DNA from: Campylobacterota bacterium
GTDB lineage: Bacteria; Campylobacterota; Campylobacteria; Campylobacterales; Hydrogenimonadaceae
DNA: 42,062 nucleotides
Assembly (NCBI GenBank): GCA_013153475.1
Contig: JAADEJ010000084.1
Coordinates: 1 to 42,062 of the forward strand
Direction of reading: 5' to 3'
Positions 8,505 through 36,801 of this stretch are shown here, one piece after another. Every line of letters begins with the position of its first letter. Position 1 is the first letter of the stretch. A program made the translations under genes and the position numbers. Below the pieces are notes generated by a model. The model saw only the letters and a program-made list of their open reading frames with translations. It made no database searches and had not been told where the DNA came from.

Positions 8505-8890
8505 TGTTTTCCAAAAAACTCGTCTTCGTTTTAATGGCCGTTTTCGCTTTTTTGGCCATCTCCGCCTTTTTGGCCAACCTGCCCGAAAAGAAAGACCCCG
8601 CCGTCATGGCTTTCATTGAGCCACACTTTCCCTACACCTTCACCAAGACCCTCGGCGGCCTCGACCTGATAGACAGACGCACCGGCGAAAAGCTTAAACT
8701 CGACAACGCCAAGGTCTTCCTGGCCTACGACCACTACCTCAAGGGGTGGGGAGAAAAGCACCTCAAACTACAAGGAAGCACCTTGACCCTCACCGACGAC
8801 AACGGCTCGGTCAGCACCCTCGCGCTCACCCCCACCCAACGCACCTTTGTCAGGAAGTTTTTCTTCCAACAGCCGTCGCAGTCGCGCTGA
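8501..8890 (+). CDS. Unknown small membrane-anchored protein
   Basis: 129 residues, not recognised. It begins with one hydrophobic segment (residues ~6-26, LVFVLMAVFAFLAISAFLANL), likely an uncleaved anchor or signal. A soluble, probably periplasmic ~100-residue part follows with no cysteines or recognisable motif. It overlaps the ferrochelatase stop by four bases, so it belongs to that operon and its FNR-type promoter. Its last 41 codons are antisense to the 3' end of the thioredoxin-like gene on the other strand. Coding is supported by position and ribosomal coupling rather than by homology. Confidence 0.7.
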   Translation: MMFSKKLVFVLMAVFAFLAISAFLANLPEKKDPAVMAFIEPHFPYTFTKTLGGLDLIDRRTGEKLKLDNAKVFLAYDHYLKGWGEKHLKLQGSTLTLTDDNGSVSTLALTPTQRTFVRKFFFQQPSQSR

Positions 8891-9235
8891 GTCCACCGGC
8901 CCTTTGAGAGGATCGGCCAAAAAGCGCTCATCGGGCGTCAGCAGAAAAAGCGTGGGATATACCAGGGTATAGAGCAGTTCGACGGGGTAGTCTTCATACT
9001 CTTTAATCACCACTACCGGCACGGTGCGGGTGTTAATACAGCGTGAAAGGGTCTCATCGGCGTTGATATCCGCGATGACCTTTTTGCACGCCTCGCACCC
9101 TCTTTCAATCACCAAAACCGCCATCGGTTTGCCGCTTTGTCGGCTAAGCGCCAACGCCCGATCAAACTTCCCCTGCCACCGCACCGGCTCCGCCAGGCAG
9201 AGCGATACCAAAAACAGCGCCGTCCATAGCCGCAT
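8768..9235 (-). CDS. Periplasmic thioredoxin-like protein
   Basis: 155 residues with a signal peptide (LWTALFLVSLCLA, cleavage near 15). The thioredoxin-like fold has a redox pair CEAC at residues 47-50 and a cis-proline-type segment YPTLFLLTPDERFL near 113-126. It resembles the small thioredoxin_7-type proteins found beside c-type cytochromes, perhaps reducing apocytochrome or peroxidase thiols. Its ATG follows the peroxidase stop with no gap. The fold ends near residue 130. The remaining ~26 residues are Gly/Glu-rich and lie antisense to the upstream gene of the other strand, so they look like a read-through tail. Confidence 0.8.
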   Translation of the reverse strand: MRLWTALFLVSLCLAEPVRWQGKFDRALALSRQSGKPMAVLVIERGCEACKKVIADINADETLSRCINTRTVPVVVIKEYEDYPVELLYTLVYPTLFLLTPDERFLADPLKGPVDSARLRRLLEEKLPDKGALGGGEREGADRAVVVGEGQGASL

Positions 9236-10354
9236 CTACCGCACCTCGTAACCGACCGGATCGCCTTCGAGACTTTTTAAAAAAGCCGTGATCTGCCCGA
9301 TCTGCTCTTTCTCAAGCGTCAGGCCCAGTTGATGGCGGGCCATGATACGCACCGCCTCTTCGAGCTTCTCGACCGCGCCGTTGTGGAAATAGGGGGCGGT
9401 ACGGGTGACATTCCGCAAAACGGGAACCCGAAACAAAAACATCCCCCCTCTGCCGTGAAAACCGCCCAGATCATCAAACGGATAGGGGGTATCTTTGGGT
9501 TTTTGCCAATGAAATCCCGCGAAATAGCGCTTCCCGTCAATCCAGCGCGACACGGGGGCCAGCAGACCGTTATAGGGGCGCAAAGGAAAACGCTGCAAGC
9601 TCTGCCCGCCGACGCTTACGCCGTTATGGCACCCTTTGCATCCGATGCGCAAAAAGAGGTTCAACCCCGCCAACGCCCTGCCCTCAAGCGCCCCGTCATC
9701 GCCTTCCAGAAAATGATCAAACGCCCCGCGAGTCAGCAATGTCCGCTCATAGGCGCCGATGGCTTTGGTGACGGTATCAAACGTGATCCCCTCCTTGGGG
9801 AAAACCTCGGCAAAAGCCGCCACGTAGAAAGGGTCGGCCCGAAGACGCGCCACCACCTCTTCCGGTGTCATGGCCATCTCAAAAGGCGCCTGCAACGGCC
9901 CTTTGGCCTGATCCTCCACATCGGGACTTCGGCCATCCCAGAACTGCCGTTTGGCCAACGCGGCGTTGAGCACGGTAGGAGAGTTCAGGTGTTTGGGATT
10001 ACTCAGACCGTGGTAGCCGACGGCGGTGGGGCGGTTGTCGTCACCACCCTCTTCCAGAATATGGCACGAGGCGCAACTGAGAGTGCGGTCTTTGGAAAGC
10101 AGCGGGTCAAAATAGAGCCGTTTTCCCAACGCCGTCTTTTGGGCGTTTAACGGATTGGCCGGGTTGTCGACAAGTTTTCGGGCCGCGTCCCAGCTTTTCG
10201 GAATGGGCCTAAAGCCTGCTTCCAGCGCCGTTTTACGCAGTGATGCGGCGGAGAGTTCCGACGTTCTTGGGGTGGGAGCCGGTATAAAAAAGCCGTTGAA
10301 ATAGAGACTCAGTACCGCCAGGGCGATGAGGAGAATGGTCAGGTGAATACGCAT
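9236..10354 (-). CDS. MauG/cytochrome c peroxidase-type diheme protein
   Basis: 372 residues. An N-terminal hydrophobic stretch (residues 4-22) exports or anchors it to the periplasm. Two c-heme sites are seen: CASCH at 94-98 and CKGCH at 239-243. The spacing, the FWDGRSPDVEDQAKGPL stretch and the LRNVTRTAPYFHNGAV stretch near 320 are those of bacterial diheme peroxidases (CCP/MauG family). It would reduce hydrogen peroxide with electrons from periplasmic cytochromes, or oxidise another substrate as MauG does. The thioredoxin-like gene follows without a gap. Upstream lies its own -10 and a direct-repeat operator next to an AraC gene, so it is probably regulated by that AraC protein. Confidence 0.92.
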   Translation of the reverse strand: MRIHLTILLIALAVLSLYFNGFFIPAPTPRTSELSAASLRKTALEAGFRPIPKSWDAARKLVDNPANPLNAQKTALGKRLYFDPLLSKDRTLSCASCHILEEGGDDNRPTAVGYHGLSNPKHLNSPTVLNAALAKRQFWDGRSPDVEDQAKGPLQAPFEMAMTPEEVVARLRADPFYVAAFAEVFPKEGITFDTVTKAIGAYERTLLTRGAFDHFLEGDDGALEGRALAGLNLFLRIGCKGCHNGVSVGGQSLQRFPLRPYNGLLAPVSRWIDGKRYFAGFHWQKPKDTPYPFDDLGGFHGRGGMFLFRVPVLRNVTRTAPYFHNGAVEKLEEAVRIMARHQLGLTLEKEQIGQITAFLKSLEGDPVGYEVR

Positions 10355-10374
10355 GAAAACCTCCTTTTACAAGG

Positions 10375-10439
10375 AGTATAATGAAAAAAGAGGGAAAAAA
10401 ACCGTCTCTTTTTGGCACAATCGGAACTCTTTTTGTCAC
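10375..10439 (-). promoter_or_regulatory. Peroxidase promoter with direct-repeat AraC-type operator
   Basis: On the minus strand GTGACAAAAAGAG (10439-10427) and GTGCCAAAAAGAG (10418-10406) are direct repeats of 13 bases with one mismatch. They are 21 bases apart, two helix turns. A TATACT -10 lies at 10380-10375, which puts the downstream half site just above the -35 position. This is the standard geometry for AraC-family activators, and an AraC gene ends within the distal repeat. Confidence 0.6.
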
Positions 10440-11344
10440 GATCCGAATTTTTTGAGCGCCTTGGGGTGGATACCGAATGTTTCGTAAAAGAGCCGGCTGA
10501 AATAGCCCTGGTGCGAAAAGCCGACCCGGCGGGCTACCTCCCCGATACTCATCCGCTCTTCCCGTAACAGTTCGTTGGCCTGCTGAAGACGCAGAGTTCT
10601 GACATAGGCACCGACCGTCTGGCCGTAAACCCGTTTAAAAGCGCTTTTGATTCGGGTGGTGTTCGTGGCGCACGCTTTGGCCAGTTCCGCAATGGTGGGC
10701 GGGTTCGCGTAAGAAAGCGCCAGACGCTCCCGCACGCAACGGGCTACCCTCAACGATTCGGCGTCGATTCGCTCATCCACCAGCTCCATCAGCCCGAAAC
10801 GGTGCAAAAGAAGCGCCATGACGGCATATTCCAGGCGCATGGCGGCCATGGGACGCGCCCGGGCGCTCTTTTGGAGAATCTGTTTCACATAGTAGTACGA
10901 CAACGCGTCAAGCGGCGCCCGGTCCACCTCCCTGAGCCCCCGCAAAAGCGACACTGCGCCATAGAGGTGGTCGATGGGATCCTCGGCGCGAAAACCGAGG
11001 TAACGCTTAAGATAAAAATCGGCCACGGCCACGGCGAAAATGTGGCTGTCTGGCATCACTTCCAGCTCAATCTCCGCGGGGCCCGCCGCATAGACAAGGC
11101 TATCCCCCTCATGCCCCTTCAGCCGTGCCGTCGCGGTTGTAAAGCGGCAATCACCCGAAAAGGGCAAAACCAGCAGAATGAACCTGTCCCGATTATGTAC
11201 CCGGTAAGACCACCCGCCGTCCGTACGCAGATCGAAAAAGAGCAGACCGTTGGAAATGTCCACCCGCTCCGCCCGGGTGCCCCGACGCTGTGTCACCTGC
11301 CGCCGAAACCGCCCCTCGCCGGCATTGAAAAAGAGGCTCTCCAC
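10436..11344 (-). CDS. AraC-family transcriptional regulator
   Basis: 302 residues. The N-terminal ~180 residues form a beta-rich, cupin-like sensor region without a recognised ligand motif. The C-terminal ~100 residues carry the double helix-turn-helix of AraC/XylS (TIAELAKACATNTTRIKSAFKRVYG, then SIGEVARRVGFSHQGYFSRLF). The start is a GTG that shares one base with the stop of the short-chain dehydrogenase gene (TAGTG), so the pair is coupled and lies at the end of the heme d1 operon. A two-turn direct repeat before the peroxidase gene immediately downstream is its most likely target. The ligand is unknown. Confidence 0.9.
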   Translation of the reverse strand: MESLFFNAGEGRFRRQVTQRRGTRAERVDISNGLLFFDLRTDGGWSYRVHNRDRFILLVLPFSGDCRFTTATARLKGHEGDSLVYAAGPAEIELEVMPDSHIFAVAVADFYLKRYLGFRAEDPIDHLYGAVSLLRGLREVDRAPLDALSYYYVKQILQKSARARPMAAMRLEYAVMALLLHRFGLMELVDERIDAESLRVARCVRERLALSYANPPTIAELAKACATNTTRIKSAFKRVYGQTVGAYVRTLRLQQANELLREERMSIGEVARRVGFSHQGYFSRLFYETFGIHPKALKKFGS

Positions 11345-12156
11345 TATGCAAACCCGTAATATTCCCGAACCCGTCGCTCAAAATCCTCATCGCTGAGCTC
11401 CCGGCGCATGGGAATGAACTTTTTGGCTTTCTCACCCGCCGTCATACGGGCCGGGGCGTCGGGGTTTTGGTCAATCCAGGCTATCAGGCGGGCCACTTCC
11501 TCCGGGTCATTCCCGCCGTTGATCTCCTCCACGATCCGGGGGGCCAGGGTGGAAGCCAAAACAGCATAGGGGCTGTCGGATTCAAACGTCCGCGGCTCTT
11601 TGACCAGGTTGCTACGCGCAAACTCCGTATCAAAAAAACCGGGCAGAATCGAATGGACACGGATATGAAACGGTGAAAGCTCATACCGCAACGAGTCGGT
11701 AATCCCTTCCACGGCATATTTGGTCGCGTTGTAAAAAGTCAGCAGAGGCAAGCCGATCTTTCCCAAAAAGGAGCTGATATTCACGATGACCCCGCCATTT
11801 TCGCGCATCTTCGGAATCGCCGCGCGGGTCACGCGCAACAGTCCGAAAACGTTCACCTCAAACTGCTCGCGCATCAGCGTCTCATCCACATACTCCACGG
11901 CACCCACCAGGCCGTATCCGGCGTTGTTGACCAGCAAATCCAGCCGTTCTATACTCTCCAACGCCGCGCGTACGTCGGCATCGTCACGTAAATCGATCAA
12001 AAGGGGCGTCAGGTTTTTGGAAGCGACATCGGCAAGTCTGTCGGGGAAACGGGTAGCGGCAAAGACCCTGTACCCTTCGGCGGCCAGGTGCACGGCGGCG
12101 GCACGCCCCATGCCGGACGACGCGCCCGTTACAACGGCGACGCGACGTCCGGCCAT
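11344..12156 (-). CDS. Short-chain dehydrogenase/reductase
   Basis: 270 residues, classical SDR. It shows the NAD(P)-binding TGASSGMGRA at residues 10-19, NNAGYG near 88, a serine in NISSF, and the catalytic YNATK near 152. The ATR after the second strand favours NADP. It sits one base after nirE and one base overlaps the AraC start, so it is firmly inside the nir operon. No dehydrogenase of this family is established in heme d1 synthesis, and the substrate cannot be read from the sequence. It could act on a tetrapyrrole intermediate or belong functionally with the AraC gene. Confidence 0.9.
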   Translation of the reverse strand: MAGRRVAVVTGASSGMGRAAAVHLAAEGYRVFAATRFPDRLADVASKNLTPLLIDLRDDADVRAALESIERLDLLVNNAGYGLVGAVEYVDETLMREQFEVNVFGLLRVTRAAIPKMRENGGVIVNISSFLGKIGLPLLTFYNATKYAVEGITDSLRYELSPFHIRVHSILPGFFDTEFARSNLVKEPRTFESDSPYAVLASTLAPRIVEEINGGNDPEEVARLIAWIDQNPDAPARMTAGEKAKKFIPMRRELSDEDFERRVREYYGFA

Positions 12157-12157
12157 C

Positions 12158-12904
12158 TCAGCCCCTCTCCGCGATCCACTCCAGGTGGGGCTTGAGCTCG
12201 ACCACCCGGCCTACCACGATCAGGGCGGGGGTAGGAAGTTGGGCGGCTTTGACCTTTTCGTAGATCGTCTCCAGCGTCCCCGTAACCGTCCGCTGGTCGG
12301 GCGTGGTTCCCCGGCTGATTACCGCCGCGGGTGTCGCGGGATCGCGGCCGACACGTATGAGATTGTCGGCAATGTTTTTAAGATTATGCAGGCCCATCAA
12401 AAAGACAATGGTCTCATCGGCACGCATACTCTCCCAGTCAACCTGGCTATGCTCCTTGTTGGGCGCCTCATGGCCGGTGACCACTTTAAACGACACCGCC
12501 ACTCCCCGGTGCGTTACCGGTATGCCGGCGTAGGCGGGCACGGAGATCGCCGAGGTTACGCCGGGAATGAACTCAAAAGCCACGCCACGCTCTTTGAGAT
12601 ACTTGGCCTCCTCGCCGCCCCGTCCAAATACCAGCGGATCACCGCCTTTAAGACGCACTACCCTGTCATGCTTGAGAGCGTTTTGGTAGATAACTTCGTT
12701 GATCTGCTCCTGCGGCAGGGTATGACGGCCGTCCTCTTTGCCCACATAGACAAACTCACACCCCGCCTTGGCCTCTTTGAGAATATCGGGGTTGGCCAGG
12801 CGGTCATAGATAATCACGTCCGCCTCCCTTACAACTCTTAACGCTTTGACCGTCAACAGGTCAATATCACCCGGCCCGGCCCCTGTCAGATAGACTTTAC
12901 CCAT
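12158..12904 (-). CDS. nirE: Uroporphyrinogen-III C-methyltransferase
   Basis: 248 residues, the SUMT family (CobA/CysG C-terminal/NirE). It uses two S-adenosylmethionines to convert uroporphyrinogen III to precorrin-2, the entry step to siroheme and heme d1. Family motifs are clear: YLTGAGPGDIDLLTVKAL at the start, VRLKGGDPLVFGRGGEEA near 84-101, PGVTSA near 115 and PVTHRG near 129. Its place between nirJ and the dehydrogenase suggests the heme d1-dedicated NirE, although it could also serve siroheme for other enzymes. It starts 28 bases after the nirJ stop. Confidence 0.93.
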   Translation of the reverse strand: MGKVYLTGAGPGDIDLLTVKALRVVREADVIIYDRLANPDILKEAKAGCEFVYVGKEDGRHTLPQEQINEVIYQNALKHDRVVRLKGGDPLVFGRGGEEAKYLKERGVAFEFIPGVTSAISVPAYAGIPVTHRGVAVSFKVVTGHEAPNKEHSQVDWESMRADETIVFLMGLHNLKNIADNLIRVGRDPATPAAVISRGTTPDQRTVTGTLETIYEKVKAAQLPTPALIVVGRVVELKPHLEWIAERG

Positions 12905-12932: not shown

Positions 12933-14063
12933 TCAATTATCCACTCCCGCTCTCTCATCTTCCGTGAGATAGCAGGAGGGGTCTTCCGCCCACAAATTAC
13001 CGCTCATCGCCCAGGCCCGGCTGCGACTGCCGCCGTTACAGATATCGACCACGCCGCAATCCGCGCATTTGCCGCCGAGTCTTCGGGGGTGTTCTCTGAG
13101 CCTTTTAAGCAGGTTATTCTCCTCATCCAGCCACAACGCGTCAAAGGGTTTTTGGGTCATGTCGCCGATATACTCGGGAAAAAAGGGGTCGGGTTTGACG
13201 CGTCCCATCCAGTCAATGTTCACCAGCTTTCTGCCCGCGCTGTTGCCGCCCCAGTTTTTTAGCCGCCGGGCCATCTCCTCTTTGAGCTGGGGATAGCGCT
13301 CAGCGAAACGGCGCAAAAACAAAACGGCGTCCATCTCCATGTTGCCGGTGACAATATCGATCCCCCGCCCCGCCTCATGGTAGGCAAACGCCTTGTCAAT
13401 CATGAAGTTCACATACTCCCTGCGCGCCTCGGGGGTGATGTCGATTTTCAGGTTCTCCAGCCCCCGACCGCTGTAGACCAGGTGGGAGATATAGATCTTA
13501 TCAACCCCTATCTGCTCGGCCAGATCGAAAATGGGGTAAAAACTCTCTTCGGTCTCTTTGGTTAGCGTAAAGCGGATCCCCGCGTTACCCCCGTGTTTTT
13601 GAATGAGCGCAATGGCGTCCAGGCTTTTGCGATAGGCCCCCGGCAATCCCCTGAAATCGTCATGCACCGCCTCAATGCCGTCAATGCTGATACCGATATA
13701 GTTGAAAGTCTCAATAATTCTGTCCACATTTTTGGGGGTAATATACAACCCGTTGGTGGAGAGGTAGGTGACGATTCCCTCGTTTCGCATCGCCTCGGCG
13801 ATTTGGAAAATATCCTTGCGAATGAGCGGCTCACCGCCGCTGAAGATCACAAACTTGATGCCGCCGGCTTTAAGACGGGGAATCTGGGCGAGAATAAAGT
13901 CGGTAGAAAGAAAATCCTCCTGGTTCGGATCGGCGTAGCTGTAGCAGTGCCGACAGGCAAGGTTGCAGCGGTTGGTGAAGTTCCAGATGGCAATGGCGCC
14001 GTCCAGCGAGCGCTCCGGCTTGCCGGCGGTGACGGAAGCGATGAGATTGGAGAGCCGAAACAC
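12933..14063 (-). CDS. nirJ: Heme d1 biosynthesis radical SAM protein NirJ
   Basis: 376 residues. It has the radical SAM cluster motif CNLACRHCYSY near residues 33-42 and the GGEPL SAM-binding motif near 77. A C-terminal SPASM-like cysteine set (CADCGVVDIC...C near 337-366) can hold a second iron-sulfur cluster. NirJ removes two propionates from didecarboxysiroheme as part of installing the oxo groups of heme d1, in the cytoplasm. It begins with a GTG directly after the nirF TAA. The name is supported by the nirE and nirF neighbours; related AhbC/AhbD proteins differ mainly by pathway context. Confidence 0.93.
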   Translation of the reverse strand: MFRLSNLIASVTAGKPERSLDGAIAIWNFTNRCNLACRHCYSYADPNQEDFLSTDFILAQIPRLKAGGIKFVIFSGGEPLIRKDIFQIAEAMRNEGIVTYLSTNGLYITPKNVDRIIETFNYIGISIDGIEAVHDDFRGLPGAYRKSLDAIALIQKHGGNAGIRFTLTKETEESFYPIFDLAEQIGVDKIYISHLVYSGRGLENLKIDITPEARREYVNFMIDKAFAYHEAGRGIDIVTGNMEMDAVLFLRRFAERYPQLKEEMARRLKNWGGNSAGRKLVNIDWMGRVKPDPFFPEYIGDMTQKPFDALWLDEENNLLKRLREHPRRLGGKCADCGVVDICNGGSRSRAWAMSGNLWAEDPSCYLTEDERAGVDN

Positions 14064-15308
14064 TTAGTGCCTTTTCAAATCGGTAGGAACCGTTACGGGT
14101 GTTTTTTTTGTAACGTTTTTAGTCTGCGATGCCGAAGGAATTGTGCCGATTTTTGGCCGGGGTGAAACGGTTTTGGGGGTATAGACAAAGATACCGGAAG
14201 GCCGGGGCACCTGCCACTCCAGATTCAGCCACCACTTCTCGGGATCGGGATCATCAACTTTGTAAGCCTGCACCATATCTTTGTCGTTGACGGAAAAGTA
14301 GAGATACGGTTCATTGGGCGACCAGCGCACATGAAGAATTTTACCCGGGAACATAAACCCGCGGACCACTTTGAGGGTATGGGCATCGACAATCTGCACA
14401 ATGGGAAAATCTTTGCCGCTGAATGTCACCGCCAGCCATTTCCTGTCCGGACTGAGCGCCGTAAAGACCGGATTACCCTGAACATCAATCGCTTTGACAA
14501 AATGGAAGTCATGATCAAAGACAAAAACCTTTTTGTTGCCCACAGCCGGAATAAAGAAGTAATCGCCGCTGATACTCCAGAAACCGAAATGGGGCACCTT
14601 GAGAATGCGCTCTTTTTTGCCCATCTGCAAAGGCACCTTGCGGTACGCCATGGTATCAAGATTCAGCACCCCGACGGCTTTGTCGTTGAAAAAACCCACC
14701 ACATAGAGATTTTTATCGATCATCGCGTCAAAAGGCACGGCGCCGGCGTTCTCGATCTTTTTATACAGCTTGAAAGAGGGGGTTTTGGCCTTGGGCGTCA
14801 TATCTTTCATCACCCACAACTCGTCGCTGTCCATACAGGCAAAGACCAGGTAGTCACCGTACTCTTTGATACCCACGTTACGACTACCGGTTTTGATGGT
14901 TTGAAGCGGATTGAGGTCTCTATCGAGTATCTCGACGGTTTTGTTGTCGTAGTTGGCCACCGCCACATAGTTGTCGCCGATAATAAACCCGATGGCGCTT
15001 TTGCTGGTCTTATACTCTTTGACCTTTTTCTCTTTCTCCGGATCAAATTTGATCACATAACCGTCACGGGTAATGGCGTAACCGTCACGCTCCCTAAACT
15101 TCACCACGGCATGGTTGAAATTGTGCATGCCTGTAATCTCATTGGTCAGCATATTGTGTTCAATCACGGCCAGAGCAGAGTTCTCACGCTCCACAACAAA
15201 GAGTTTATCTCTGGTTTTGGGAAGGATCGAAGCGGGATCTTTTACCGGCTCTTTGGCCGTTGCTATCACAACGATACCCAGTAATGTAACCAGTTTCCAC
15301 CACGTCAT
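14064..15308 (-). CDS. nirF: Heme d1 biosynthesis protein NirF
   Basis: 414 residues. An export signal (residues 4-18, WKLVTLLGIVVIATA) is followed by a beta-propeller related to the d1 domain of NirS but without a cytochrome c domain, as in NirF. Propeller repeats show as VVERENSALAVIEH, VAVANYDNKTVEILDRD and LLVAVTFSGKD-like blades. NirF acts late in heme d1 formation in the periplasm, where it can bind the d1 product. No lipobox is seen, unlike some pseudomonad homologues. The last ~35 residues (Pro/Lys/Thr-rich, KTVSPRPKIGT onward) are an extra low-complexity tail. Its ATG overlaps the nirC-like stop. Confidence 0.88.
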   Translation of the reverse strand: MTWWKLVTLLGIVVIATAKEPVKDPASILPKTRDKLFVVERENSALAVIEHNMLTNEITGMHNFNHAVVKFRERDGYAITRDGYVIKFDPEKEKKVKEYKTSKSAIGFIIGDNYVAVANYDNKTVEILDRDLNPLQTIKTGSRNVGIKEYGDYLVFACMDSDELWVMKDMTPKAKTPSFKLYKKIENAGAVPFDAMIDKNLYVVGFFNDKAVGVLNLDTMAYRKVPLQMGKKERILKVPHFGFWSISGDYFFIPAVGNKKVFVFDHDFHFVKAIDVQGNPVFTALSPDRKWLAVTFSGKDFPIVQIVDAHTLKVVRGFMFPGKILHVRWSPNEPYLYFSVNDKDMVQAYKVDDPDPEKWWLNLEWQVPRPSGIFVYTPKTVSPRPKIGTIPSASQTKNVTKKTPVTVPTDLKRH

Positions 15309-15610
15309 TTTTTATCCTTGAATGAAAGTATGTAGTCGGCCAGCGCTTCAAGTTGACTGGCGTTAAGGTCATCAAAAGCCGGCATAGAGTTGCGGCGGTA
15401 TCCCAACATTTTATATGTGCCCTCCGGATCCACTATCTGCGCGATAATTCTGCCTTTGTCCCGATGGTTCGCTATGGTCTGAAACGAGGGGCCGAAAGCC
15501 TCGGCTGTTTGATGATGACATCCCCAGCAATAGGTTTTAAAAAGTTTTTCACCTTCCGAAGAGGCCGATAAAACGGCACCCGCAAATATCAGTAGCCATA
15601 TCTTTTTCAT
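15305..15610 (-). CDS. nirC: Small monoheme cytochrome c (NirC-like)
   Basis: 101 residues with a signal peptide (IWLLIFAGAVLSAS) and one heme c site CWGCH near 28-32. The likely distal methionine is in NSMPAFDDL near 76. The mature protein of about 85 residues is a class I cytochrome of the NirC/c55x type coded next to nirF in denitrifiers, where it can donate electrons to NirS or take part in d1 maturation. It overlaps nirF by four bases and follows the pentaheme gene by eight. The specific NirC name rests on gene order. Confidence 0.78.
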   Translation of the reverse strand: MKKIWLLIFAGAVLSASSEGEKLFKTYCWGCHHQTAEAFGPSFQTIANHRDKGRIIAQIVDPEGTYKMLGYRRNSMPAFDDLNASQLEALADYILSFKDKK

Positions 15611-15617
15611 AGCTCTC

Positions 15618-16727
15618 TCACTTCACTACAGTTTCAACCCGTTTCATCAGTAACGGCTCAATCAACTCGCGTTCATCTATGCCTGCCGCCGCCGCGCAGG
15701 AGGGCTTGGCAAGAATCACGAACATTTCGGCCACCATTCTATCATTTTTATGCAAAGAAGGGACCTTGTAACGCAACGTTTTTTCTCCCCTTGCGGGAAT
15801 ATTGTTTTCAAACTGCCTCTTTTTCGCAAAGTAGGGGATGCCGACCCGTTTGCCGTTACCATCCTCAAACTCTACATAAAAAGCACCTTGTTTGTCTTCT
15901 GTTGGATCGTTTTTGTAATTCTGCCAAATAGTTTTGCCATCACGCACAATCCTCAGGCGCAGGTATTTCATCCGCGCGGGCTGAATAATAAGAGGATGAT
16001 CCATTCTATTTTTCAGGGTGACAACAACCTCTCCATTACGGTTTTCTAGCACAATATCAACACTTTTTTCCCGCATTTGCGCATCATGGATACCGGCAAA
16101 ATAGTGGCTTCGGTGACGGTTGCGCGACTTCTTGTTCATCTTTTCAACCGGCCCCTCAATGTAGGGCATATGACATTTAATGCACGAACGGCTGTCCTGT
16201 TTCTCATCCATCGCTTTGAAAATAAGTACCCCTTCACTGTTACGTTTGTGTGAGTGACATCCCATGCAGGCATATTTGTCATAGATGGGACTTTTGACCG
16301 ACGCGTGCTTGTCACTGTCATCCGGGTTTTCCAAAGAGCCGTATAGGGAAGGCTTGAAACCTTCCGCCTGTCTGGCGAGCGTTATCTCATCAAACTTGTG
16401 CGATTTTTTGACATAGGCAATCTGGTGACAGTAAAAACAGGAAACCGCATCTTTTTGTTCCTGATGAATCGGATTGGGTGTCGTTTTTCCCGCTTCCATA
16501 TCGGCAAGATTCCTGGCAGCAGGCATATGGCAACGCCCACAATCATAGACGGGAATTTTCTGCGCCACCTTTCTGTGCAATGTATCGTTAAACCACCCTT
16601 TCGCATGCCAGGAGGTCTGGTATTCATCGTAAATATCCGGGTGACATTCATTGCAGGATTTATTTGTAAGATATTTTGCAGAGAAAAGTGAAGTGACAAC
16701 GAGAAGCGGTAACATGAGCGCTTTCAT
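15618..16727 (-). CDS. Pentaheme cytochrome c with beta-rich C-terminal domain
   Basis: 369 residues, periplasmic (signal MKALMLPLLVVTSLFSA). Five CxxCH sites: CNECH at 25, CGRCH at 63, CFYCH at 97, CMGCH near 150 and CIKCH near 182. Extra histidines lie between them, as in cytochrome c554/HAO-related multiheme folds. From about residue 215 the protein has no heme site and alternates beta strands (DIVLENRNGEVVVTLKNRM), like an immunoglobulin-type domain. It is the first gene after the nirS terminator and heads the nirC-F-J-E group. Its role is not known; it may feed electrons to NirS or to a d1 maturation step. A ribosome site AAGGTG precedes the ATG. Confidence 0.87.
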   Translation of the reverse strand: MKALMLPLLVVTSLFSAKYLTNKSCNECHPDIYDEYQTSWHAKGWFNDTLHRKVAQKIPVYDCGRCHMPAARNLADMEAGKTTPNPIHQEQKDAVSCFYCHQIAYVKKSHKFDEITLARQAEGFKPSLYGSLENPDDSDKHASVKSPIYDKYACMGCHSHKRNSEGVLIFKAMDEKQDSRSCIKCHMPYIEGPVEKMNKKSRNRHRSHYFAGIHDAQMREKSVDIVLENRNGEVVVTLKNRMDHPLIIQPARMKYLRLRIVRDGKTIWQNYKNDPTEDKQGAFYVEFEDGNGKRVGIPYFAKKRQFENNIPARGEKTLRYKVPSLHKNDRMVAEMFVILAKPSCAAAAGIDERELIEPLLMKRVETVVK

Positions 16728-16762: not shown

Positions 16763-16791
16763 GAAAAACAACCTCCCCGCGGAAGGGGAGG
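16763..16791 (-). terminator. Rho-independent terminator after nirS
   Basis: On the minus strand CCTCCCC-TTCCGC-GGGGAGG forms a seven-pair GC stem followed by TTGTTTTT. It begins about 17 bases past the nirS stop. It separates the nor-nir structural genes from the downstream cofactor genes, which must rely on read-through or on a promoter I cannot identify. Confidence 0.85.
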
Positions 16792-16807: not shown

Positions 16808-18517
16808 TTACGCACCCGGAATATGCTGACGATGCTCAACAGAGTAGGTGAAAGTCGGCGTCGTCAGGTTGTAGATATATTTGATGAACTTACCGGTTTT
16901 GGCATCATAGATACCAATCCGTCCGGTTGTCCACTCAGAGATAAAGGTCCACTTGCCGTGGTTCGCAGGCTCTGCGTGGAGCAGGCGGGGTTGAACCGGA
17001 TTTTTGACACGTTTACCTTTTTTGGCAGTATAGGTGACAAGTTTCTCTTTGGAGATTTTGGAGTCAACCTCTTTGCCTTTGACAGTCTGATACTGCGTAG
17101 CATCCCAGGTTTGCAGAATTTTACCGGTATGCGCATCAATCAGATGACCTTTCTTCTTGCCAACCTCGATGATGCGATCGGTCTCAAGGGTCTCTTTGTT
17201 GATCAGGTAGACTTTATTGTAGTTTTCGGGTGAACCGAGAACACAGTCAGACCAGATGTAGGGGGTGTCTTTGCTGGTTCCGACAAACAGACCGCCGCCC
17301 GCGGTCGGTACGTTGGCAACCACTTTCCAGTTATTATCCCAAATGACCACGTTACCGACGTTCATGCTGTTGGTAGCATGGAGTTGGCCATATTTTTCGT
17401 TATACCAGGAGCTTCCCTGACCCGGGTGGGGCTTGGTGCCGGGACCGGTATAGACTTTGGCCGCCAGTTTTTTGGTTTTGAAGTCAACAATACCCATGAC
17501 ATCACTGCCCTGAGAGGCGATCATATAGTAGCGTCCGATTTCAACGCCTTCGTTCAGGAACGCGTCGTGCAGGATTTTACCGATGTTCGGAATGTCACCG
17601 ACAATCGGGAATCCGGGTTTGGAGTAGTCAACAATGTAAACATGACCGCCGTCTTTGAGCGCAAACGCGAAATAGGGGCCGTAAGGCGTATCGGCAATGG
17701 AAGCGACACGGCTGGAAACAATGTTGCCGTCAGGATCAATCACACCGGCAGTTTGATAAACTTTGAGCGGCTCCAGCGTCAACGCATCACACAGGACCGC
17801 ACCGCCGGGATTGTAGTTACCGGCCATAACATATTTACCGTCGGGGGAAACAGCCAGACCGCGAGACTCCTGTCCTACCTGAACGCTGGCAAGCGCAGGC
17901 TGTCCGGGAGCCGCCAGGTCAAACATGGTCAGACGGCCGGAGCGGCTGATGGAGTAGGCGTAGCGGGGCATCCGTTTGTTGGTGACGGTTACGTGAACCG
18001 CAAAGCCCGCTTTGTGGCGCGAGAGAACCTTTCCGTTTGTACCGTCGATAAAGTCAACCAAAGAGGCGTCACGCTCGGTAGCGAAAACAATATCCATTAC
18101 GCTGTCAACATCGGTCGCGTGAGGATATTTTTTGGCCAATGCTTTGCGATCGGCCAGAACCTTCCAGGTTTTTTTGACCTCATCCAGGCTCAAACGAAGC
18201 TCTACGGTGTTTTTCCAGTTCATCAGCCACTCGACCATGCCGGCGGCATCGTCTTTGCTGAAGAGATGTTTCCACTCAGGCATCGCTGTACCGGGGCGAC
18301 CGTTAAGAATGGTTTCCGCCAGCATCTGGGCATTTTTCTTCTTCAGCGCTTTGGGGCGAAGATCGGATCCGACACCACCCTGGTGAATCGGGCCGTGACA
18401 TCCCTGACACTCTTTTTCATAAACTTTGGCGAAATCCATATTCGAGGTGCCGGCATAAAGCGATCCGGTCACCATGGAGGCTGCCGCCGCCATGCTCAGA
18501 AGCTTCGCAATCTTCAT
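16808..18517 (-). CDS. nirS: Cytochrome cd1 nitrite reductase
   Basis: 569 residues. Signal peptide to about residue 22 (SLYA), then a cytochrome c domain with CQGCH at 37-41 and a probable Met79 ligand (GTAMPEW). A long d1 propeller follows, with the proximal heme d1 ligand likely His175 (FAVHVTV) and a distal-pocket His364 (PHPGQGSSW). It reduces nitrite to NO in the periplasm. The segment aligned by eye with the second distal histidine of pseudomonad NirS (THP) reads GTSKDTPYIWSD here, with Ser415 in place of His. The C-terminal part (RLLHAEPANHGKWTFISEW) also diverges. NirN is an alternative, but length and the norB neighbour favour NirS. AAGGAG precedes the ATG, and a GC hairpin lies in the leader. 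Confidence 0.88.
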   Translation of the reverse strand: MKIAKLLSMAAAASMVTGSLYAGTSNMDFAKVYEKECQGCHGPIHQGGVGSDLRPKALKKKNAQMLAETILNGRPGTAMPEWKHLFSKDDAAGMVEWLMNWKNTVELRLSLDEVKKTWKVLADRKALAKKYPHATDVDSVMDIVFATERDASLVDFIDGTNGKVLSRHKAGFAVHVTVTNKRMPRYAYSISRSGRLTMFDLAAPGQPALASVQVGQESRGLAVSPDGKYVMAGNYNPGGAVLCDALTLEPLKVYQTAGVIDPDGNIVSSRVASIADTPYGPYFAFALKDGGHVYIVDYSKPGFPIVGDIPNIGKILHDAFLNEGVEIGRYYMIASQGSDVMGIVDFKTKKLAAKVYTGPGTKPHPGQGSSWYNEKYGQLHATNSMNVGNVVIWDNNWKVVANVPTAGGGLFVGTSKDTPYIWSDCVLGSPENYNKVYLINKETLETDRIIEVGKKKGHLIDAHTGKILQTWDATQYQTVKGKEVDSKISKEKLVTYTAKKGKRVKNPVQPRLLHAEPANHGKWTFISEWTTGRIGIYDAKTGKFIKYIYNLTTPTFTYSVEHRQHIPGA

Positions 18518-18834: not shown

Positions 18835-20286
18835 TCACGCAGCTGCCGCTACGCTTTCGCTCTCTTTTTGTGAAACCTCCTGACCGATGGTCAGAAGATC
18901 CCAGGCCAGGTAGACAAAGCCCACCAGCGTCACGATACCCATCACCAGCCGCCAGGCTTGTGCCTGTACGTACCAGGGGAGCTCCTGGGCAATGAAGAAA
19001 GCGTCCCAGCCGCCGCCAAGGTCCGCCCGCTCAACCAACACCTGCTCGTATCCGGCAATGGTCAGCGCTACAGCCATGCCAAGCACACCGAAGATGATCA
19101 AAAAGAGCGACATCTTGGTTTTAAAGGTCATGGTCATCTTTTTAATACCGTATGCGCCCTGGACGCCCAGATACATCATCCCAATCAGAATGGTCGCATA
19201 AGCGCCAAAGAAGGCCAGGTGGCCGTGGGCCGCCGTAAACTGTGTACCATGGGTATAGATGTTCACCTGCGGCAGAGTATGGAAGAAGCCCCAGATACCA
19301 GCACCCAGGAAGTTTCCGAACGCGTTGGAGGCGATCCACGCCATGGCCGGGCTGTTTTTGACCGCCGTACCGGCACCGCCGGCTTCCGCATGGCCCTGCT
19401 CTTTACCCCAGTCATACAGTACGTGCACGAACATCGCCACCAGCGGCACCGGCTCGAGGGCACTGAAGAGCGCACCGATCTCCCACCAGTACTCAGGCGT
19501 TCCGATCCAGAAGTAGTGGTGACCCAGACCCAGGATACCGGAACCAAAGAGCATCAGCACTTCAATCCAGAGCCACATCTCCACGATTTCACGTTTGGCG
19601 TCCAGAATTTTGATTAGAGCGTAAGCGGCCAGGGTTCCGACAAAGACTTCCCAGGTCGCCTCAACCCACAGGTGGATAACCCACCACCACCAGTACTGAT
19701 CCATGGAGATGTTGTCGGTAAAGAACATACCGCACAGATACAGACCCGCCAGCGCGAAGAGGTTGGCCACCATGACGGTCATGATACCCGTCTTCTTCTC
19801 AGACTTCAGATAGGTGAAGAATACATTATAATAGAAGACAAGCACAACCGCCACGATACCGATGTCAGCCCAGCGCGGTGCCTCCAGATATTCACGGCCT
19901 TCGTTAATGAACCAGATGGTCGATTCACTGCCCGATCCCACCTGAATGAAGATGTAGACCAGTACCACCACGGCCACCGCCGCCGTCAGAATCCAGAAAG
20001 CCAGTTTGCCCAGCGCGATACCGACCGCTTCATGTCCCGTTTCATCGGGAATCATGTAATAGACCGAACCGATCATCGCATAAAGCATCCAGACCACCAG
20101 GGCGTTGATGTGCACCATCCGCGCCACGCTGAAGTCAAAGAGTTCAAACAAAAATCCGGGATAGAGAAACTGAATGGCGGCAATCAGCCCCATCAGAAGC
20201 TGGGCACCGAAAAGCACCAGCGCGACCCGGAAATAGTTCATCGCAAGCTTTTGCGATTCATATTTCAATTGACCGTTAATGAGCAT
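18835..20286 (-). CDS. norB: Nitric oxide reductase large subunit
   Basis: 483 residues from the ATG at 20286, which has AAGGAGG five bases upstream; the ORF-track start at 20340 lies inside norC and is not used. A heme-copper oxidase-type membrane protein with about 12 spans. Expected ligands are present: ARMVHINALVVW (low-spin heme His), VIHLWVEATWEVF (FeB His and the nearby Glu), LGHHYFWIG (two FeB His), and AAHGHLAFFG (b3 and b His). It reduces 2 NO to N2O with electrons from NorC. It lacks the fused N-terminal extension of quinol NorZ, so this is the cytochrome-dependent cNOR type. It overlaps norC by 11 bases. Confidence 0.95.
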   Translation of the reverse strand: MLINGQLKYESQKLAMNYFRVALVLFGAQLLMGLIAAIQFLYPGFLFELFDFSVARMVHINALVVWMLYAMIGSVYYMIPDETGHEAVGIALGKLAFWILTAAVAVVVLVYIFIQVGSGSESTIWFINEGREYLEAPRWADIGIVAVVLVFYYNVFFTYLKSEKKTGIMTVMVANLFALAGLYLCGMFFTDNISMDQYWWWWVIHLWVEATWEVFVGTLAAYALIKILDAKREIVEMWLWIEVLMLFGSGILGLGHHYFWIGTPEYWWEIGALFSALEPVPLVAMFVHVLYDWGKEQGHAEAGGAGTAVKNSPAMAWIASNAFGNFLGAGIWGFFHTLPQVNIYTHGTQFTAAHGHLAFFGAYATILIGMMYLGVQGAYGIKKMTMTFKTKMSLFLIIFGVLGMAVALTIAGYEQVLVERADLGGGWDAFFIAQELPWYVQAQAWRLVMGIVTLVGFVYLAWDLLTIGQEVSQKESESVAAAA

Positions 20287-20941
20287 GAGTACCTCCTTCA
20301 AGACGCTTCGCCGATTGCGAGAAGTTGCGAGGGAATCCATTGGTGTCGATGGCGCTCATATGTTTCAAAAACGCCACCAGCGCCACGGCTTCCTCTTTGG
20401 TAATACCAAGGTTGGGCATCATCCGCGCATGGGTAGGATATTGGGAAGGATGCATCAAAAATTCGGCCATCGCCTCCTCTTTGCTCGCTTTGCCCGTAAT
20501 GCCGGTCATGGTGCCGTCGTTCCATTTGGGATCCAGCCACGCTTTGGTCAGATCGGGCGCGTAGTAGGCGCCGTTACCCAGCAGGGTATGGCAGTTCATA
20601 CAGTTTTTGGCCTGAGAGGTCAGCTTGCCGAGATGCAGCAGTTTTGCCGCCTCCTCAGCGCTCCACTCTTTGCCGAAAAAGGTCTCTTTTTCGCCGATTA
20701 CCGGCACTTCGTGACCCCGTTTGTCATCGAACTGATAATCAATATGGTAGTTGATGACCGAAGCGGCGGGAATCCGCTTGGTAATGCCGTTTTTAAGATC
20801 CTCGTCACTTCCCATACTAATCTGTCCCATCGTATCAAACGTCAGCCATATCAGCAACACGGTGGCCACACCCGTGACCCATGCCGCCGAACGGCGCCAA
20901 AACGGTATGCTTGTCCATACCGACGCACTCTTCTTGCTCAT
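20276..20941 (-). CDS. norC: Nitric oxide reductase cytochrome c subunit
   Basis: 221 residues. One N-terminal membrane span (AAWVTGVATVLLIWLTF, ~19-35), then a periplasmic part with a single heme site CMNCH at 114-118 and the NGAYYAPDLTKAW motif typical of NorC; the methionine ligand is in HARMMPNLG. It passes electrons to NorB. It is about 70 residues longer than pseudomonad NorC, the extra length lying between the span and the heme site. The ATG at 20941, with GGAGG four bases upstream, is preferred to the GTG at 20944. It overlaps the upstream gene's stop by one base (TGATG). Confidence 0.94.
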   Translation of the reverse strand: MSKKSASVWTSIPFWRRSAAWVTGVATVLLIWLTFDTMGQISMGSDEDLKNGITKRIPAASVINYHIDYQFDDKRGHEVPVIGEKETFFGKEWSAEEAAKLLHLGKLTSQAKNCMNCHTLLGNGAYYAPDLTKAWLDPKWNDGTMTGITGKASKEEAMAEFLMHPSQYPTHARMMPNLGITKEEAVALVAFLKHMSAIDTNGFPRNFSQSAKRLEGGTHAH

Positions 20942-21303
20942 CACGCCTCCTTTAATGATTTGGTAGTTTGCCCATCCTCGACCGGGTCGTAGCGGTTCTC
21001 GGACTCCTCGATCAGATAAAAGTAGAGATGGGGGGCAAAGAGGTAGATCACCATGGCCACCATCAATACTTTTGTCGTGAAGGGGTTGCTCTGTACCCGC
21101 TGCGCCAGGTCATACAGGCTGTAAGCCTGCAATATCCAGAAGAAATAGCCGAAAGGCTGCCATTTTTTGGGAACAAAACCCATCTTGGAGAGGGTAATCA
21201 ACGCGGCGTAACCGACTCCGAAAACCAGAACCAGCGTCGCCATGACGAATATTCCCAAAAACTCATCCGGTGCCAGTTGGGGCATATGGATGACCGATTC
21301 CAT
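20941..21303 (-). CDS. Unknown membrane protein heading the nor operon
   Basis: 120 residues from the ATG at 21303 (AAAGGAGTGTC before it); the track's 21321 start has no ribosome site. It is hydrophobic, with two or three predicted spans: residues ~13-36 (LGIFVMATLVLVFGVGYAAL), a weaker one around 52-66 (FGYFFWILQAYSLY), and ~79-97 (VLMVAMVIYLFAPHLYFYLI). The C-terminus is charged. No metal-binding motif or family is recognised. It is the first gene behind the best FNR-type promoter in the window and its TGA touches the norC ATG, so it is likely needed for NO reductase assembly or function. Confidence 0.82.
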   Translation of the reverse strand: MESVIHMPQLAPDEFLGIFVMATLVLVFGVGYAALITLSKMGFVPKKWQPFGYFFWILQAYSLYDLAQRVQSNPFTTKVLMVAMVIYLFAPHLYFYLIEESENRYDPVEDGQTTKSLKEA

Positions 21304-36294: not shown

Positions 36295-36801
36295 ATGAAA
36301 AAAGCCGCCATCGTTCTTATCATGATCGCCCTGATCGTGTCGCTTTTTCTGGCTCTCGCCCAGAAACCGCACGCAAAAATCATCAAAACCGGCAATACCA
36401 AACAGGCTGTCATCGAGATAGAGCCGGGAGAGTATCAGTGCGCCCAATGCAAAATGCCCGTGGAAAAACGGGAGTATGCCGCACAAGTCGCTATAAAAAA
36501 CGGCAAAACCTGGTTTTTCGACGACATCGGATGTATGGCTTTGTGGCTGGGGAACCAGCCCTTCAGACAAAGCGCCGTCGTATGGGTCTATACACGCGAC
36601 ACCCACCGCTGGATCAACGGACGCGACGCCTGGTACACCCAGTTGGAAAACACACCGATGGGATACGGCTTCGGGGCCTATGAAAAACACGCCGAAAACA
36701 CGTTGAAGCTCGATGCGGTTATCGACCATATGCTCAAGGGTGAAAATCTCACCAATCATACTTACGCCAAAACGCTTCTTCAAAAGACAGGACACCGATA
36801 A
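36295..36801 (+). CDS. NosL-like copper-binding protein
   Basis: 168 residues. An N-terminal membrane span (residues 4-22, AAIVLIMIALIVSLFLALA) is followed by the NosL-type metal motif CAQCKMPVEKREYAAQ near residues 47-62 and the matching FFDDIGCMALWL near 79-90. NosL proteins bind Cu(I) and help build N2O reductase; related forms serve other copper enzymes. No nosZ is in the window. It runs two bases ahead of the SafE-type gene, a likely partner in copper handling. An FNR-type box lies upstream. Confidence 0.82.
   Translation: MKKAAIVLIMIALIVSLFLALAQKPHAKIIKTGNTKQAVIEIEPGEYQCAQCKMPVEKREYAAQVAIKNGKTWFFDDIGCMALWLGNQPFRQSAVVWVYTRDTHRWINGRDAWYTQLENTPMGYGFGAYEKHAENTLKLDAVIDHMLKGENLTNHTYAKTLLQKTGHR

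Follow-up and report, generated by a model that had tools for sequence, protein, structure and literature searches.

A pentaheme cytochrome c with an immunoglobulin-like domain adjoins the cytochrome cd1 nitrite reductase gene nirS in Campylobacterota

The window analysed here, a stretch of 42,062 nucleotides from a Campylobacterota bacterium, carries genes of nitrite reduction and heme d1 synthesis on its minus strand, in the order nirS, PENTA, nirC, nirF, nirJ and nirE/cobA. The first of these, nirS (16808..18517), encodes a cytochrome cd1 nitrite reductase with Cytochrome c and Cytochrom_D1 domains. PENTA (15618..16727), the subject of this study, encodes an exported pentaheme cytochrome c of 369 aa with a C-terminal immunoglobulin (Ig)-like domain, as judged from its open reading frame and translation, its Pfam matches and its fold match to PDB 5ZE8. 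The genes that follow encode a nirC-like monoheme cytochrome c of 101 aa (15305..15610; assigned by its Cytochrome c domain, position and conserved synteny), NirF, a d1-type beta-propeller of the Cytochrom_D1 family without a heme c domain (14064..15308), NirJ, a radical SAM protein of heme d1 synthesis (12933..14063; TIGR04051 is its best match, under the strict cut-off), and a uroporphyrinogen-III C-methyltransferase, NirE/CobA (12158..12904; TIGR01469 above cut-off). Upstream of nirS, on the same strand, lie genes for a norB-like COX1-family subunit (18835..20340; PF00115 and synteny) and a norC-like monoheme cytochrome c (20276..20944; PF00034).

The gap between nirS and PENTA measures 80 bp and holds a terminator-like hairpin on the minus strand (16772..16791; CCTCCCCTTCCGCGGGGAGG + TTGTTTTT). 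Together with the domain matches, the hairpin bears out the initial annotation, which had placed the cytochrome gene between a nirS with its own terminator and nirC. Sites combining a hairpin with a T-run show no excess over shuffles across the 4-kb region. Among relatives, 29 of 60 nirS-PENTA gaps contain such a site, compared with 0.9 expected for shuffled gaps, and it is thus a recurrent element of this gap. It would probably allow nirS to be expressed above the genes downstream of it.

Behind nirE, genes for an SDR, an AraC-type regulator, a diheme peroxidase (CcpA/MauG-like) and a thioredoxin-like protein follow one another (8768-12156), and this group recurs, whole or in part, beside nirS or PENTA in several other Campylobacterota genomes (L063, L073, L075, L083, L085, L151, L181). 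A fused siroheme decarboxylase of 356 aa with two NirDL-like HTH/AsnC units (1181-2251) replaces separate NirD/L/G/H proteins. A protein of 168 aa with a CxxCKMP motif (36295-36801) has no Pfam match at 1e-4 and reads like a NosL-type copper protein.

The N-terminus of PENTA, MKALMLPLLVVTSLFSAKY, reads as a Sec signal peptide without a lipobox cysteine. The heme-binding region (residues 25-186; 16170..16655, minus strand) contains five CxxCH motifs, at residues 25-29, 63-67, 97-101, 154-158 and 182-186, and a scan of the sequence beyond residue 186 revealed no other. All five are invariant in alignments of 22 and 61 rows and are kept in 97 of 97 other relatives from which a full frame was extracted (29 and 68 from two sets, with few genes present in both). 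Extraction required at least four CxxCH, and every frame had five; this retention shows that PENTA is not a chance ORF. An AlphaFold2 model built from 61 sequences reached a mean pLDDT of 84.4 and a pTM of 0.84, and is poor in the loop 118-144. From about residue 222 to residue 369 (15621..16064, minus strand) the model is beta-rich, with pLDDT of at least about 95 across most of this heme-free domain, whose Ig-like character is further supported by the profile match to 5ZE8. Sequence and model are thereby in accord with the earlier description of an exported protein with five CxxCH sites and a heme-free beta C-terminal domain.

The sole Pfam matches of PENTA, to Cytochrome_C7 and Cytochrome_C554, are weak and lie over the heme region (for the latter, 26 bits over residues 25-101). 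A single good solved relative was found, PDB 5ZE8 (phmmer E 2.4e-10), the pentaheme cytochrome c552 of Thermochromatium tepidum (Chen et al., 2019). In a profile search, the match (E 6e-33) spans hemes 4-5 and the whole C-terminal domain, reaching residues 221-429 of the 5ZE8 chain and taking in the Ig-like domain of PENTA. In Foldseek, the model aligned with 5ZE8 from end to end (E 2.1e-20, TM 0.70/0.67, rmsd 5.7), and no other PDB entry among the 50 matches listed covers the whole protein. Both proteins combine five hemes with a C-terminal beta domain, at 20% identity; T. tepidum c552, unlike PENTA, comes from a purple sulfur phototroph, and we know of no link between it and nirS.

A pentaheme domain joined to an immunoglobulin-like domain characterises the PHC family, in which a study of cable bacteria has placed this fold together with Geobacter ExtKL (2025, PMC11976967). 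PHC proteins (cable-bacteria sPHC/lPHC, Geobacter ExtKL and the MccSep structures 9wt8/9wt9) share this layout with PENTA and match it weakly in sequence. PENTA scores far under the threshold of the ExtKL family itself (NCBIfam NF040886; 26.5 bits against a cut-off of 250), which has selenoprotein forms, and PHC/ExtKL genes are tied to ext clusters or cable bacteria rather than to nir. PENTA thus belongs to the T. tepidum c552/PHC fold, and its pentaheme plus Ig-like layout was already known. The beta-domain that had initially been taken for an addition within the nir operon is the Ig-like domain of this family and is not peculiar to PENTA.

Five histidines outside the heme motifs, His41, His51, His141, His208 and His244, are retained by all of 93 NirS-linked sequences and, with few exceptions, by 23 paralogues. 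Because their number equals that of the hemes, all five hemes can be bis-His ligated, and the conservation pattern suggests that they probably are. His160 and His205 are also well conserved, so that several assignments of the distal ligands are possible; His41, His51, His208 and His244 have aligned counterparts in 5ZE8. The candidate ligand His244 (15996..15998, minus strand; invariant in 84 clade-1 sequences, 9 clade-2 sequences and the 23 paralogues) lies within the Ig-like domain, which suggests that this domain closes one heme, likely by supplying His244 as its ligand.

The histidines also bear on whether PENTA could be an enzyme. It had been suggested that the protein belongs with the nitrogen-oxide enzymes of the c554/HAO group, in which case its substrate might be nitrite, NO or hydroxylamine, as for c554, HAO or NrfA, and it might shield the cell or make use of by-products of NirS. 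The weak Pfam matches over the heme region and the position beside norCB and nirS are consistent with such a role. Against it, the five invariant histidines suffice for six-coordination of all hemes and leave no obvious open heme, 5ZE8 is the sole whole-length fold match listed, and structures of c554, NrfB, HAO and NrfA are all absent from the 50 Foldseek matches listed for PENTA, which differs from the c554/NrfB/HAO group in its extra Ig-like domain and in having distal histidines enough for every heme. Nor is PENTA a missed NrfA, since the NrfA profile PF02335 matches nothing in the genome of the window, PENTA included. An enzymatic role therefore appears very improbable, and the histidines make an electron carrier the likelier reading of the sequence.

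PENTA has a single non-heme cysteine, Cys344 (15696..15698, minus strand), which is confined to the main NirS-linked clade: it is present in 84/84 sequences of clade 1, in 0/9 of clade 2 and in 0/23 paralogues, and 5ZE8 lacks an equivalent. A different cysteine precedes heme 5 in clade 2 and in the paralogues (VCNT/VCST-like) as well as in 5ZE8 (LCQT). Clade 1 has lost this cysteine and has Cys344 instead.

The association of PENTA with nirS holds well beyond the window. In a first set of 397 Campylobacterota genomes, orthologues (E at most 1e-73) were found in 25, all of which have NirS, itself present in 52 of the 397 (hypergeometric P 1.7e-25, with kinship ignored). In 18 of these 25 genomes PENTA lies directly behind nirS, in two about 1.7 kb behind it, in two within about 6 kb and in three elsewhere. 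A second set, drawn from GTDB genomes (mostly Hydrogenimonas, Sulfurimonas, Sulfurovum and Nitratifractor MAGs), overlaps partly with the first and is not independent of it (for instance, L169 and L151 are the genes of G003 and G047, respectively). Here, nirS lies at most 300 bp upstream of PENTA in 65 of 80 loci, and six more start at a contig edge or close to one. For five loci with no nirS in the vicinity, nirS proved to lie elsewhere in the genome in all five cases. Where both flanks could be read, nirS is immediately upstream in 55 of 59 loci. A homologue survey had been set beforehand as a test of the proposed coupling to nitrite reduction; orthologues are not mostly found away from nir genes, and pairing with nirS and co-occurrence with NirS extend the coupling across the phylum.

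In a midpoint-rooted tree, NirS-linked sequences stand apart from the Campylobacterota paralogues, with a support of 94/98 for the dividing branch. Two paralogues (L188:7293-10992 and L191:7216-10909) are divergent to genes for a COX1-family protein of ~560 aa and a partner of ~205 aa, which are possibly an unusual NO reductase. A search of plasmids gave only two weak matches, one in an Aeromonas record that is unannotated around the match and one in Sulfurovum, away from nir genes. In the open-licence PMC literature, no description was found of a NirS-linked pentaheme cytochrome or of a clade with its own invariant cysteine; the fold is known, and the linkage to NirS looks new.

Conserved pairing might be a matter of operon history, with PENTA serving as a periplasmic electron store or wire of general use, without a role specific to NirS. 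Paralogues of the same family have mixed neighbours in the same genomes, PHC proteins elsewhere are tied to extracellular electron transfer (PMC11976967), and relatives can lose PENTA, all of which would suit a general carrier. This explanation is nonetheless rather unlikely, because the pairing with nirS is kept across several families and Cys344 is invariant within its clade, both of which argue for selection on a NirS-related role.

PENTA is absent from 27 of the 52 NirS genomes. These include two genomes of the same genus whose NirS is 90-92% identical to that of the window. In a congener without PENTA (G199), nirS is followed directly by nirC on a short nir contig. It follows that NirS does not need PENTA, which is accessory. 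In another genome (G238; L085:10842-11246), a 134-aa remnant of PENTA sits directly behind an intact nirS; it keeps the first CxxCH and the C-terminal end and has lost the middle, a sign of decay. Exchange of PENTA for another gene was considered and set aside: in relatives, the gap between nirS and nirC is either short (G145, G307, G009) or occupied by a thioredoxin-like ORF unrelated to PENTA (L086, L088), which fits simple absence better than replacement.

Fold, histidines and gene order are together best accommodated by an electron carrier that serves NirS, and we give about an even chance to PENTA being a dedicated, dispensable electron-transfer partner of this enzyme. The protein would be a soluble periplasmic cytochrome with the T. 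tepidum c552/PHC fold; it would hold several electrons and hand them on, and would not bind nitrite or NO. Electrons would presumably flow from PENTA to the heme c of NirS through physical contact between the two proteins, and the customary small donors, either NirC or cytochromes of the c551 type that receive electrons from the bc complex, would act alongside it. Cytochrome genes adjoining nirS have a precedent in the nir operons of Pseudomonas stutzeri, where the NirT, NirB and NirM cytochromes serve electron supply; PENTA, unlike NirT, is not of the NapC/NirT family.

Several points weigh against a donor role, among them the absence of PENTA from 27 of the 52 NirS genomes. The T. tepidum relative is reportedly described by its authors as a low-potential protein, and such a potential is far from ideal for NirS. 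At E 1e-6, none of the 25 PENTA genomes gave a match to the NapC/NirT-type quinol dehydrogenases (PF03264), which could feed a low-potential carrier, a result that likewise disposes of PENTA itself as a NapC/NirT-type protein. Among NirS genomes, two without PENTA and none with it carry NapC-type genes, numbers too small for any conclusion. The genome of the window encodes a bc-type cytochrome b, and electron supply to NirS in Sulfurimonas denitrificans has been assigned to the bc complex and its cognate cytochromes (review, PMC6682613). A further point is that heme d1 genes also adjoin PENTA, in 37 of the 59 loci.

This last observation leads to the main rival to the NirS-donor reading, in which PENTA accepts, in the periplasm, the electrons set free during heme d1 maturation, as NirF and NirC form the keto groups and as the dilactone and the acrylate double bond arise, and passes them on, perhaps to NirS. 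The usual order is nirS-PENTA-nirC-nirF, with nirC, nirF or nirJ at most 1.5 kb downstream of PENTA in those 37 loci. NirF and NirC have been shown to introduce the keto groups of heme d1; one of the schemes proposed casts NirC in the part of electron acceptor, and the step that forms the dilactone was left open (2026, PMC13168839). Moreover, NirN was not found in PENTA genomes. It is equally missing from the 20 PENTA-less NirS genomes examined, so PENTA is no simple substitute for NirN. PENTA-less genomes whose nir loci were read keep nirC/F/J, and heme d1 synthesis presumably proceeds in them all the same. Gene order also binds PENTA more tightly to nirS than to nirC/F/J: among the 55 loci with nirS immediately upstream, 37 also have maturation genes downstream and 18 have nirS only, and none of the 59 loci has maturation genes without nirS. 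At one locus too short for this count (L154), nirF lies downstream of PENTA and nirS on another contig. Gene order thus favours NirS over NirF/NirC as the partner, and a function in maturation, the strongest competitor, is on balance unlikely.

The apparent lack of NirN extends to all 45 NirS genomes searched with the Cytochrom_D1 profile (25 with PENTA and 20 without), which have NirS and NirF and no clear NirN. Two genomes show an additional weak match to this profile, and G365 shows two additional strong ones, in frames that are far longer (655 and 985 aa). Some other route must consequently accomplish the last dehydrogenation of heme d1 in this phylum. One speculative extension, which we regard as improbable, is that Campylobacterota finish heme d1 without NirN and that PENTA, where present, is the anaerobic, periplasmic electron sink for dilactone, keto-group and side-chain oxidation by NirF/NirC, with electrons returned to NirS and Cys344 marking the specialised form.

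How NirS is supplied with electrons, and where the electrons of heme d1 maturation go, are poorly known outside Proteobacteria. Among denitrifying Campylobacterota of vents and sulfidic sediments, a whole clade encodes a pentaheme cytochrome beside nirS, and close relatives lack it; nature here provides a comparison, with and without the protein, of how cytochrome cd1 receives its electrons. Given the 45 genomes without a clear NirN, the way in which heme d1 synthesis is completed in the phylum is a separate, testable question. For the T. tepidum c552/PHC fold, the linkage to nirS provides a physiological setting, one found in many deep-sea and sulfur-oxidising Campylobacterota.
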